Shown one piece after another: positions 5,370 through 36,552 of a DNA stretch of 36,552 bases. Origin of the DNA: a virus; the IMG/VR virus record IMGVR_UViG_3300032288_004137, positions 1 to 36,552 of that record; one strand, written 5' to 3'. Numbering within the stretch: position 1 is the first letter of the stretch; each line of letters opens with the position of its first letter. A model generated the notes under the pieces. The model did no database searches. It worked only from the letters and a program-made list of their open reading frames with translations, and had not been told where the DNA came from. The position numbers and the translations under genes were made by a program.

Positions 5370-6044
5370 TTACATTTCAATGTAATTCTTTCTCTGTTGT
5401 AAGCAATGTATGATAAAATGCTTTCCAGATAATCTTTTGATTGAAGGAATTAAAACAACTTCCATTGGATTGTCTTTTGCTTCCAGAAGTAAAGTATTGT
5501 ATTCTGCTTGTGCCTTTTGAAGCATTAAGGGTCTTAATTCAGCAAGTTGTTCTTCAATGTAACTTTCCTTCATGTTTAGAACTATTGCATTGCATTCATT
5601 TACATCCATATCGATTACACCAGTTTTTAAACAGTTAAGATACTTTTGTTTTGAATGTTCTTTGAACTCAATTTCCTTTTGAATATTTATCTGGTTTTCC
5701 ATTTCTTCTTTTTCTATATTTTTTAATTCTTCGATTACTAATCTTTTTTTGCTCATGTATTTTTTTACTGGAGCAACTAATTCTTCAATTGTCAACTGTA
5801 CGAATGGAATCTTTTCTGTATTGTTTTCTTCAAATGAACTTCTAATATCTTGAAAAGTTAATTCTGGATATTTTGAAACTAAATACTTTATTGATTCTGA
5901 AATTAAAACAACCGATACATTTTCAGCTTTTATTCCAATCCAAAGTTCTGCATACACGATTAATGTTTTTCCTGCTTCTGATATCTTTTCTGAAACAAGT
6001 GTGCTGTTAGAAAACATATTTTCAAGAGATTTCTTCGTAATCAT
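5370..6044 (-). CDS. Hypothetical protein next to replication initiator, 224 aa
   Basis: I chose the ATG at 6044, which overlaps the end of the upstream replication gene by 23 bp; ATG at 6017, just after that gene's stop, is an alternative. A frame open to 6173 would overlap by 152 bp and is unlikely. The protein is helical, with a charged middle part (VIEELKNIEKEEMENQINIQ) that may be a coiled coil, and shows no P-loop, so it is not a DnaC-type ATPase loader. Its place right after an O-like initiator is where phages often encode a helicase loader or accessory replication protein. That role is inferred from context only. Confidence 0.6.
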   Translation of the reverse strand: MITKKSLENMFSNSTLVSEKISEAGKTLIVYAELWIGIKAENVSVVLISESIKYLVSKYPELTFQDIRSSFEENNTEKIPFVQLTIEELVAPVKKYMSKKRLVIEELKNIEKEEMENQINIQKEIEFKEHSKQKYLNCLKTGVIDMDVNECNAIVLNMKESYIEEQLAELRPLMLQKAQAEYNTLLLEAKDNPMEVVLIPSIKRLSGKHFIIHCLQQRKNYIEM

Positions 6045-6810
6045 CAAAGATTGTCCGTTCAGAAATGGCTTCGCTAACAGTCGGCTCTTGATTAACTCCG
6101 AATGCTCTATCGATTTCTTCAAATCGTTTTGCAAGTTGTTCTTCTCTTGTAAGTTTTGTAAATTGTGTTCCATTGTTACTTGGTTTTAAATATGATATTG
6201 TTGAATTTAATTTTGTTTTCCAATTAATAATTGGTTTATTATTTCCATCCTTCCAATCGTTTTCAATCCAACTTTCATATTTTGTTTGAACTTGAAAATC
6301 TAAGTTTGGAAATTTTTCTGATAAACTTGTTTTATAATAATCCATAAATTCAGAAATGGAAGGAATGACAATTTCTTTTTTTGGTTTTTTTGGTTTATTA
6401 TTAATTATTAATTCTTTATTATTATTATTTAATAGTTTATTATTTGTTGAAAGGGTATCTTCAAGGATGCTTAAAGGTATGCTTTCAGTACCCTTTAAGG
6501 GTTCTTGCAAGGGTGCTTCAAAGGTTTCTTTAATTTCTTCTGGTTTTGAATTGTTTAAGTCTTTATTTTTTTTAAGTTCAGAACCTTTTTTACCTGCATT
6601 TTTTGCTCCTATAATAAAATCCATTGTTTTTTTATAGGTGTTAAAATACTTTTCTTCAAGCTTATTTATATGAATTTGTGGTTTTCCCATGTAGTACATA
6701 CATACATTGTAAATCCAATCTTTTAAAAGATTTTCATCTTCAAAAAATTCTCTGGCAATTTCAATATCTTGTTCAGTTATTTTAACAAAACTTTTTCTAT
6801 CTTCCGCCAT
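6022..6810 (-). CDS. Replication initiation-type protein containing the putative origin
   Basis: The 262-residue protein has the layout of phage initiators of the DnaD/lambda-O type found in Bacteroidetes phages. An N-terminal winged-helix-like region spans about 1-80 (EKYFNTYKKTMDFIIGAKNA), a low-complexity linker about 81-150 is rich in Asn, Lys and Pro/Leu, and a C-terminal helical domain has WIENDWKDGNNKPIINWKTK near 190-210. The linker DNA contains 12-bp iteron-like repeats next to an extreme AT tract, which is where lambda O gene carries its origin. The protein would bind these iterons and recruit the replicative helicase. Family assignment rests on architecture and context, not on a diagnostic motif. 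Confidence 0.65.
   Translation of the reverse strand: MAEDRKSFVKITEQDIEIAREFFEDENLLKDWIYNVCMYYMGKPQIHINKLEEKYFNTYKKTMDFIIGAKNAGKKGSELKKNKDLNNSKPEEIKETFEAPLQEPLKGTESIPLSILEDTLSTNNKLLNNNNKELIINNKPKKPKKEIVIPSISEFMDYYKTSLSEKFPNLDFQVQTKYESWIENDWKDGNNKPIINWKTKLNSTISYLKPSNNGTQFTKLTREEQLAKRFEEIDRAFGVNQEPTVSEAISERTIFDDYEEIS
6395..6532. repeat. Iteron-like 12-bp repeats with adjacent AT-rich tract, putative replication origin
   Basis: On the plus strand AAGG begins at 6451, 6463, 6474, 6497, 6509 and 6521, a period of about 12 bp with one degenerate slot. The unit is close to AAGGGTGCTTCA. In the middle is the inverted repeat ACCCTTTAAGGGT (6490-6502). Directly beside it, 6395-6448 is almost pure A/T and would be a good unwinding element. 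The whole lies inside the initiator-like gene, as the lambda origin lies inside O. In protein the repeats read as recurrent Pro-Leu units. Confidence 0.55.
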
Positions 6811-6812
6811 AA

Positions 6813-7010
6813 CTATTCGTTTTCAATAATTAATGCAATTTGTTTACGGAGTTCTTTTGAAAACTTTATTGCTGTTTTTTTATCTAAAATAATACTATTA
6901 AAAGAATTGTTTTCTTTCAATAATAAACAAAGATTTTTTGTTTCTTCATTTACTTCAATTGTTGTGTAGATGCTTTTTTCATAAACATCATGAAATTTTA
7001 AACTAACCAT
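6813..7010 (-). CDS. Hypothetical small protein, 65 aa
   Basis: No family is recognised. The first half is probably a beta hairpin (YEKSIYTTIEVNEETKNLCL) and the second a helix (KKTAIKFSKELRKQIALIIE). It is the first gene downstream of the structured RNA at 7051-7146, with a 40-bp spacer, and ends 2 bp before the replication gene. If the RNA is an attenuator, this gene and the replication genes would be its targets. Confidence 0.6.
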   Translation of the reverse strand: MVSLKFHDVYEKSIYTTIEVNEETKNLCLLLKENNSFNSIILDKKTAIKFSKELRKQIALIIENE

Positions 7011-7050
7011 AATTTTAATAAAGGTTTTTAGATCACCAGTAACTTTTAAA

Positions 7051-7146
7051 TAAAAAAGCCGAGCAAATTGGTGCGTAGGATTACCAATTATACTCAGCTT
7101 ATTTGTTTGTTGAAATAAAGTCTTTTGAAGTTTCCTACGCTTCTGT
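7051..7146 (-). ncRNA. Candidate structured small RNA with kissing-loop potential and intrinsic terminator
   Basis: On the minus strand, after a promoter box at 7158-7151, a short hairpin GAAG-loop-CTTC (7143-7127) exposes CGTAGGA. It is followed by a long hairpin. The lower stem AAGCTGAG (7100-7093) pairs with CTCGGCTT (7063-7056), and the upper stem AATTGGT (7089-7083) pairs with ACCAATT (7072-7066). Its loop contains TCCTACGC (7080-7073), the exact complement of GCGTAGGA (7140-7133). The two loops can therefore kiss over 7-8 bp. The long hairpin ends in a T run (7057-7052), so it also works as a terminator. There is no open frame of note. I do not recognise an Rfam family. It could be a free regulatory RNA or an attenuator leader for the replication operon. 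Confidence 0.65.
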
Positions 7147-7150
7147 TTGA

Positions 7151-7158
7151 CAAATATA
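7151..7158 (-). promoter_or_regulatory. Promoter box TATATTTG of the structured RNA
   Basis: TATATTTG on the minus strand matches TAnnTTTG exactly and lies just after the stop codon of the coiled-coil gene (7166). Transcription would start near 7146, a few bases before the first RNA hairpin. The -33 region falls inside the end of the coiled-coil gene and is not clearly conserved. Confidence 0.6.
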
Positions 7159-35160: not shown

Positions 35161-35552
35161 TACAAGTCCTCGTTTCCTTCTGGTTTAATTCCAGAACCTA
35201 AATTGATAATTGTATTAATATCTTTTCCGTTTGTTGTAGCATCAATCTTTTGACTGCTTCCATTTAATCGGTGCGCTTCTTCATCTGTTCCGATCAACTT
35301 CATTAAAGCCAACTGAAGCGTTGCATTTTCTGATTTATACCACTTTGAACGCATTGAAACTTTTATTTCAATCTTATTACTATCCAATAACTCTTTTAGT
35401 TCGTTCAGTTCGTCCGACTCAAAAGGAAATAATTCATAAAATGTTGTCTTTCCACAAGGTAAAAAAGCAACTATGTCTTCAATGAAGAATAATTTGTTTT
35501 TTTGAATTACTTCTTTTGCTTGATTGAATATCTTTTTTTTATTATAAGCCAT
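35160..35552 (-). CDS. Terminase small subunit
   Basis: The 130-residue protein precedes the large subunit with an overlapping TAATG. An N-terminal helix-turn-helix (VAFLPCGKTTFYELFPFESD, 28-47) would bind packaging-site DNA, followed by a middle helix region (SMRSKWYKSENATLQLALMK) and a flexible end. The layout and the wording of the motif 'TTFYELFP...KWYKSENATLQLALMKLI' match the Bacteroidetes type of small terminase. Confidence 0.85.
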   Translation of the reverse strand: MAYNKKKIFNQAKEVIQKNKLFFIEDIVAFLPCGKTTFYELFPFESDELNELKELLDSNKIEIKVSMRSKWYKSENATLQLALMKLIGTDEEAHRLNGSSQKIDATTNGKDINTIINLGSGIKPEGNEDL

Positions 35553-36552
35553 TATTCAAAATCTTTTTTACAATCAATTCCATTACGTTTAACTGATAAA
35601 GTTGGGTCTAACTTAATCATTCGCTTTACTATTACATCTACATAGTGAGGTTCAAATTCCATCATAATACAATTTCTTTTAGTTTGATGACATGCTACCA
35701 TAGTAGCCCCACTACCTCCAAACAAATCAATTATATTTATTCCCATGTCATATGCATTAAAACAATATGAAGCTAACTCAACTGGTTTTTGTGTTGGATG
35801 AACTCTTTTTTGCCCATGCTCTGATGCCTTTATCATTCCTTTCCATAAATGTCTAAATATTCTAACTGAACTATGCCCATCATCCACCCATGCTAATTCG
35901 CAATCGGATTGTGTATCTCTTTGATTTTCCTCTACTCTTTTATCCCAAACTAACCAATTATTCGATTGAGGTAAATGGTGGCAGTAATAATTAGCACCCC
36001 ACCAAACCTCCTTAATTGGCGAATATGTTCTCATTAAATTATAAGCATCAACTGCATATTGTATGGAGTCGTCTTTAAAATCTTTTAAATTATTTCCTTG
36101 ACAAGCACCTCCACGTTCACTTCTATCCCCTTTCTCATTTATACCATATGGAGGATCAGTGTAGATAGATAATTTATTTATTTTGCCTATTAATTTTGAT
36201 ACTTGTTCAACATCTGTACTATCCCCACAAAGCAAACGATGCTCCCCTATTTCGTATAAATCTCCTAAAACAGTAATCGGTTCTTCTGGTGGAATTGTAT
36301 CAAAATCATCATCTTCTGCTTCAAGAATCTCTTCTGTTTCATAATTCGGCACATCTAAACCCCATTCTTCTAATTCATCAACGTTCCATTCATTTGCTAA
36401 CATATCCCAATCCCATTCTCCAAAACCAACATTATCCTTGATGATAAATTGTTTCTGTTGATCTTCTGTAAGATTACTTGCTTTAATTATATGAACTTCT
36501 TTTAATCCTGCTTCCTTACAAGCTTTTAATCTCATGTTTCCACCTAAAACAA
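35552..36552 (-). CDS. ParB-domain/DNA adenine methyltransferase fusion, C-terminal part
   Basis: This part continues the gene from 277 across the circular junction (384 residues in total, numbering from the ATG at 277). The methyltransferase domain has IYTDPPYGI around 181-189 (motif IV; DPPY points to N6-adenine), HPTQKP near 303-308, and LFGGSGATMVACHQ (328-341), the SAM-binding FxGxG motif. DPPY before FGGSG is the beta-class order. An acidic linker (EEILEAEDDDFDTIPPEEP) separates it from the ParB-like N-terminus. It likely protects phage DNA from host restriction or marks it for packaging, as it lies next to the terminase genes; no cognate endonuclease is present. Its target site cannot be read from sequence. 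Confidence 0.92.
   Translation of the reverse strand, partial: VLGGNMRLKACKEAGLKEVHIIKASNLTEDQQKQFIIKDNVGFGEWDWDMLANEWNVDELEEWGLDVPNYETEEILEAEDDDFDTIPPEEPITVLGDLYEIGEHRLLCGDSTDVEQVSKLIGKINKLSIYTDPPYGINEKGDRSERGGACQGNNLKDFKDDSIQYAVDAYNLMRTYSPIKEVWWGANYYCHHLPQSNNWLVWDKRVEENQRDTQSDCELAWVDDGHSSVRIFRHLWKGMIKASEHGQKRVHPTQKPVELASYCFNAYDMGINIIDLFGGSGATMVACHQTKRNCIMMEFEPHYVDVIVKRMIKLDPTLSVKRNGIDCKKDFE
36430..36552. repeat. Right copy of the 123-bp terminal direct repeat
   Basis: This copy is identical to bases 1-123, so the last 123 bases count the same DNA twice. The gene in it reads on without a frame change from 36429 to position 1. Confidence 0.95.

Follow-up and report, generated by a model that had tools for sequence, protein, structure and literature searches.

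The paired loops of two small hairpins, which keep matching each other while their letters vary, suggest an undescribed and self-recognising control of replication in phages of Flavobacterium-like bacteria. We think that this kissing element is a promoter-proximal attenuator leader in the 5' untranslated region (UTR) of phage replication genes, from which an RNA of approximately 92 nt would be obtained as well, and we give this reading a probability of about one half. The architecture, the complement kept through changes of code, the place before replication genes, the lack of a second promoter box and the RNA strand are the parts that can be read directly from the sequences. If the reading is true, a layer of RNA control would be common to numerous, apparently virulent phages that infect an abundant phylum of bacteria, and it would stand ahead of the replication genes irrespective of the replication machinery. 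The leader also makes genome-dose sensing by virulent phages directly testable, and the at least 71 natural kissing pairs form a data set for research on the evolution of RNA specificity and on orthogonal RNA regulators.

The element was found in an IMG/VR virus record (IMGVR_UViG_3300032288_004137); the window is the whole stretch of DNA that was analysed, 36,552 nucleotides long. The initial annotation had described a promoter box, a short hairpin, a two-part hairpin and a T run, and all of them are read on the minus strand from 7158 to 7052, followed by two genes:

7151–7158, minus strand: −7 promoter box TATATTTG of Bacteroidetes type, an exact TAnnTTTG, read from the sequence.
7127–7143, minus strand: hairpin 1, GAAGCGTAGGAAACTTC, 17 nt with the form GAAG-loop-CTTC, where the 5' end of the RNA is predicted; read from the sequence.
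7133–7140, minus strand: kissing code in loop 1, GCGTAGGA, which covaries with loop 2.
Between hairpins 1 and 2, minus strand: A/U-rich linker, read from the sequence.
About 7055–7104, minus strand: hairpin 2, whose two-part stem resembles a terminator and ends in a 10-nt apical loop, from the fold and covariation.
7073–7080, minus strand: loop-2 partner of the kissing code, TCCTACGC, which is exactly complementary to loop 1.
7052–7057, minus strand: T run of six T after hairpin 2, predicted terminator end, from the sequence and from T runs in homologues.
6813–7010, minus strand: first gene after the leader, 65 aa, cluster C2, start codon 133 nt from hairpin 1.
6022–6810, minus strand: second downstream gene, 262 aa, without family match, in the place that DnaD-like helicase loaders take in homologues.

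As had been claimed, GCGTAGGA (7140–7133) and TCCTACGC (7080–7073) are exact 8-nt complements on the minus strand, and each of them occurs only once in the 36.5-kb window. The region had been described as free of genes, and none of the window's open reading frames of at least 50 aa overlaps 7052–7158. The predicted RNA is 92 nt long (7143–7052), close to the approximately 95 nt first proposed, and the minus-strand RNA has a folding energy of −23.6 kcal/mol (z −2.92), which is equalled by 1 of 200 shuffles. No Rfam family had been recognised, and none reached the gathering score of Rfam 15 for the window and five homologous loci, and a permissive Rfam search gave chance matches only. In a descriptor scan the leader was the sole site in the window with K of at least 8, compared with 0.25 per shuffled genome. 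With this unique site, and with homologues that swap letters yet keep the complement, the observation is more than chance.

According to the proposed mechanism, transcription would start at hairpin 1, so that hairpin 1 and then the terminator-like hairpin 2 would be made, and their loops would pair as an 8-bp kissing helix. Both partners emerge before the T run and, thus, kissing can act on termination; the helix would set the degree of read-through, in either direction. Some transcripts would end at the T run as a compact RNA of approximately 92 nt, and the remaining ones would read through into the replication gene. Since one RNA carries both partners, competition in trans is possible: terminated copies might compete with the nascent leader of the same code, by which the phage would sense its own dose and codes without cross-talk would be favoured. 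This trans feedback by the terminated RNA is the more tentative part of the proposal.

Relatives of the element were collected by pattern scans of IMG/VR. The first one required an exact complement with the letters of both loops fixed, and was therefore blind to covariation; it gave about 45 relatives in which the box precedes hairpin 1 and a T run follows hairpin 2. In the second scan only the box and the hairpin 1 stem were fixed, with six loop letters left free. More than 10 loop sequences were obtained in this way, with a complementary loop 2 in the family members: in 70 of the 71 homologues loop 2 holds the exact 8-nt complement, and no homologue has lost it while keeping the rest, the worst case being 7/8 in the remaining one (L204). 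Another 46 sequences from the same scan are unrelated, having neither hairpin 2 nor the complement. After further scans the set comprised 105 close homologues with 15 different 8-nt codes, all of them (105/105) with a TAnnTT(T/A)(G/A) box upstream, nearly always 5–8 nt before hairpin 1. The initial annotation had proposed a search for co-varying changes in both loops, and these are present, with 15 codes in the close homologues and 71 in the protein-chosen loci described below.

Among 49 non-redundant homologues, both partners have changed in five of the eight pairs of the kissing helix, the two parts of hairpin 2 covary as well, and the covariation of the whole structure is 0.340, versus 0.143 when shuffled. 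The GAA/TTC stem of hairpin 1 is conserved, with 96.6% of cells paired. In this table the kissing helix is 100% paired, which is partly by construction because members had to match, and the fair figure is that of the free-loop scan. The cells of hairpin 2 hold 69 G.U versus 13 A.C pairs; therefore, the minus-strand RNA, read from the promoter box, is the selected form. In some homologues the T run has just 4 T followed by CGC, so that termination could be weak. Loop 1 of the window-type codes has T at position 4 and a purine at position 6 in 15 of 15 cases, which is the UNR turn motif.

In addition, 218 loci were picked solely because they encode one of three types of replication protein, irrespective of the RNA, and were scanned with a descriptor consisting of a promoter box, at least 7 complementary letters and a T-run hairpin of at most −10 kcal/mol. 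A leader was found no more than 1.8 kb upstream, on the coding strand, in 33 of 74 primase/helicase loci, 24 of 68 BT4734/VapE-type loci and 44 of 76 prim-pol-type loci, that is, in 101 of 218 when pooled, and about half of the loci have no leader by this strict descriptor. Across the same 1.75 Mb the descriptor matched the coding strand at other positions 25 times, the opposite strand 10 times and shuffled sequence 6 times. Since the complement itself is part of the descriptor, the evidence lies in this excess relative to shuffled sequence and to the opposite strand. The leader is placed approximately 1 kb upstream of the primase/helicase gene or directly before the prim-pol gene; the link to replication that had been suggested at the outset is supported by this context, in which leaders stand directly before three kinds of replication protein. 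The same architecture is found with wholly different letters, such as GTGAGACG/CGTCTCAC in Flavobacterium phage hattifnatt9-1 and GGTCTGAC/GTCAGACC in L388. The 108 elements that were read out comprise 71 codes, whose GC averages 0.54; the kissing partners are spaced 37–62 nt apart, and the start codon is at a median of 19 nt past the T run. In 18 of 33 cases loop 1 has a closing stem of at least 6 bp, compared with about 22% for shuffled flanks. A kissing leader with the code ACCGCCAAG was also observed in L459–L462, about 4.2–4.7 kb after the start of a BT4734-type primase gene.

Several named phages carry the leader unannotated: Flavobacterium phages hattifnatt9-1, FCV-10, 11b and elemoA, and Cellulophaga phage phi19:1. 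In hattifnatt9-1 there are three leaders, before a helicase gene (GCTTCGAC), an HNH gene (GTCGTCG) and the genes leading to the primase (GTGAGACG), while FCV-10 has two, with the codes GTAGAGAG and GTAGTGC. The codes differ in every multi-leader genome seen. A DNA search of the named phages with the window region gave no match because the sequence turns over, so that protein-led searches are needed.

The way in which the codes change is informative about their function. Between L005 and L129 the background has 0/72 changes and the code 4/16, all compensated; such a code switch on an unchanged RNA suggests selection against cross-talk. Between L181 and L207 the corresponding figures are 3/72 and 6/16, with a transversion included. 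Mean code divergence exceeds that of the background at 5–15% background divergence and then plateaus, a pattern that selection for a new code fits better than slow drift; drift with compensation is possible for code changes by transitions passing through G.U. Matching code pairs have energies of −11 to −15 kcal/mol, versus about −6 kcal/mol on average for mismatched ones.

These data bear on the alternative that the element is purely structural and acts in cis, with kissing that stabilises the 5' end or the terminator and codes that drift neutrally with compensation. Perfect pairing and the narrow spacing of the partners would be expected from it, and G.U paths are available for some code changes. 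However, pairing intermediates are almost absent (1/71 in the free-loop scan), a transversion-bearing code change has occurred at low background (L181/L207), and codes differ within one genome. The seven kissing pairs counted have no G.U in 49 rows, against 69 in stem 2, a contrast that is partly by construction since the rows were chosen for an exact match. On balance we find this explanation somewhat unlikely.

Whether the leader acts only on itself is a related issue. The near-fixed partner spacing favours kissing within one RNA and fits cis action alone, and intramolecular kissing could tie up both loops and make trans action rare. A comparison of linker and stem length as a gauge of cis kissing gives little to compare, as the spacing is nearly fixed. 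On the other side, code diversity and the differing codes per genome favour an added RNA–RNA effect, because only that makes a shared code costly. A broader proposal, which we hold with clear reserve, is a new class of self-recognising leaders whose definition lies in architecture rather than sequence: each replication or nuclease gene would have a private code of approximately 8 nt, diversified by selection against cross-talk between leaders of co-infecting phages or of the same phage, and the terminated RNA would act back on its own leader and so meter the genome dose in the course of infection.

The genes around the leader help in deciding what it serves. In the window, a DUF1351-like protein and a YqaJ exonuclease are encoded upstream. 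The C2 gene is the first one after the leader in 23 loci, usually with a helicase loader and a primase/helicase next. The downstream genes in homologues encode DnaD-like helicase loaders and Toprim primase/helicases, or else prim-pol, VapE or BT4734-type primases, and a small gene or an HNH endonuclease often comes first, ahead of the replication genes. In 102 close homologues the next same-strand gene starts at a median of 14 nt past the terminator, and a second TAnnTTTG box between leader and start codon is present in 0/102. The initial annotation had left the choice between an independent RNA and an attenuator leader. The leader fits better because the start codon is close and there is no second promoter box between them; attenuators are laid out in this manner, with a terminator-like hairpin close to the promoter in a 5' UTR and no further promoter behind it.

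The independent RNA fits less well, and we consider it unlikely. It would be made for itself, for example to act in trans on host or phage RNAs, and the downstream gene would be served by read-through from upstream. The own promoter box, the compact structured RNA and the T run agree with this, as does the fact that the element precedes many unrelated genes, HNH endonucleases included. Against it stand the start codon 14–20 nt past the T run with no second box, the lack of a further site in the window for either kissing partner, and the fact that the most variable part is the self-complementary code, with no conserved seed. Very improbable is an element at the DNA level, either a replication origin or a protein site, with incidental transcription: the regular position before replication genes and a plasmid-like logic would suit it, but the asymmetry of G.U versus A.C shows selection on one RNA strand, the spacing between box and hairpin is fixed, the same device precedes genes for helicases and HNH proteins that lie apart from the primase, and sequence turnover is complete with RNA pairing alone kept. 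A packaging RNA like the phi29 pRNA was dropped, as the site precedes replication genes and not packaging genes.

The attenuator reading has clear relatives among known systems. In pT181 the attenuated gene is the replication initiator repC. The phage element shares with pT181-type attenuators the leader of a replication gene, recognition by kissing hairpins and transcription attenuation (here predicted), with a terminator-like T-run hairpin 14–20 nt before the start codon of replication genes and loop–loop recognition, which is deduced from the covariation of both loops. It is not of the pT181 kind because the partner is the same RNA and not a countertranscript: the pT181 partner is an antisense RNA, whereas in the phages a single leader RNA from one strand carries both partners. 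An antisense TAnnTTTG box is not enriched in the close homologues (8/102, versus about 0.14 expected per 150 nt). The kissing specificity of pT181-type attenuators can be changed into orthogonal sets (PMC3753616). The complementarity in the phage leader is of about 8 nt only, which is a further difference.

Bacteriophage P4 CI RNA and P1 C4 RNA are small RNAs from the leader of a replication operon (P4 alpha primase) or of the ant operon; they are processed from the leader and pair with sites in the same leader, leading to premature termination. These RNAs act from temperate or satellite elements. A leader small RNA that pairs within its own leader is common to both cases (predicted here), but pairing in the phage leader involves the loop of a hairpin that resembles an intrinsic terminator, and phages with kissing leaders are rarely found as prophages. 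ColE1 RNA I/II and CopA/CopT are plasmid copy-number RNAs with loop–loop recognition between two antisense molecules. The pairing length is similar, codes diversify as in incompatibility groups, and the UNR turn motif is shared; here, in contrast, there is one self-complementary RNA instead of two antisense molecules, in DNA phages and not in plasmids. No report of this leader was found in the open-licence literature. We think that the kissing leader is a variant of known attenuators with a fair chance of being a class of its own.

The close-type leader is absent from GTDB genomes except for one short contig, and 2 of 400 Flavobacteriaceae genomes have a relative of the primase, with no leader seen at those loci. 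Therefore, the phages that carry the leader seem to be mostly virulent. No convincing leader was found in the replication regions of phi46:1, Leef_1 and Panino, in Bacteroides BT-TP2 or in one faecal phage. Of the 102 GTDB matches to a looser pattern, 101 do not combine a promoter box with the 8/8 complement and are attributed to chance, and a covariance-model match in a bacterial genome (L449), located just after a cytochrome oxidase gene and without a kissing pair, is a false positive. Two groups from the first scan, of 70 nt and 75 nt (e.g., L002 and L051), lack the box-and-hairpin architecture and were excluded. Six loci (L051, L063, L076, L094, L111 and L112) have GCGTAGGA and TCCTACGC 75 nt apart in another conserved context (GGCCCCTTTGCGGCGG, then TTGCCGCTTTTTTCG); the 75-nt group is possibly a different hairpin-plus-terminator RNA.

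Some minor observations concern the surroundings of the leader. Between the T run and the 65-aa gene of the window (7012–7050, minus strand) the sequence is GTTACTGGTGATCTAAAAACCTTTATTA, and a similar GGTAATCTTAAAACC, a small GGT/ACC hairpin, is present in many relatives with a C2-type first gene; a hairpin of this type is also found behind leaders that are unrelated in sequence (L381, L388 and phi19:1). The GGT/ACC hairpin between leader and C2 gene may be a second, translational element. Near-identical leaders can be followed by different sequence straight afterwards (L132, L135, L173, L192 and L197; L170, L171, L203 and L206), and mosaic junctions between phage modules are frequently located where hairpin 2 ends. 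Kissing leaders also stand directly before NUMOD4/HNH homing endonuclease genes (L439, 13299–13400; L440, 10033–10137; cluster C3 loci), and the leader may travel with the homing endonuclease or restrain it. Finally, the beginning of a ParB/N6-methyltransferase-like protein (MRLKACKEAGLKEVHIIKASNLTEDQQKQFIIKDN) is encoded twice, in 1–277 and in 35552–36552 of the window, and, therefore, the record looks circular or terminally redundant, i.e., a complete genome.
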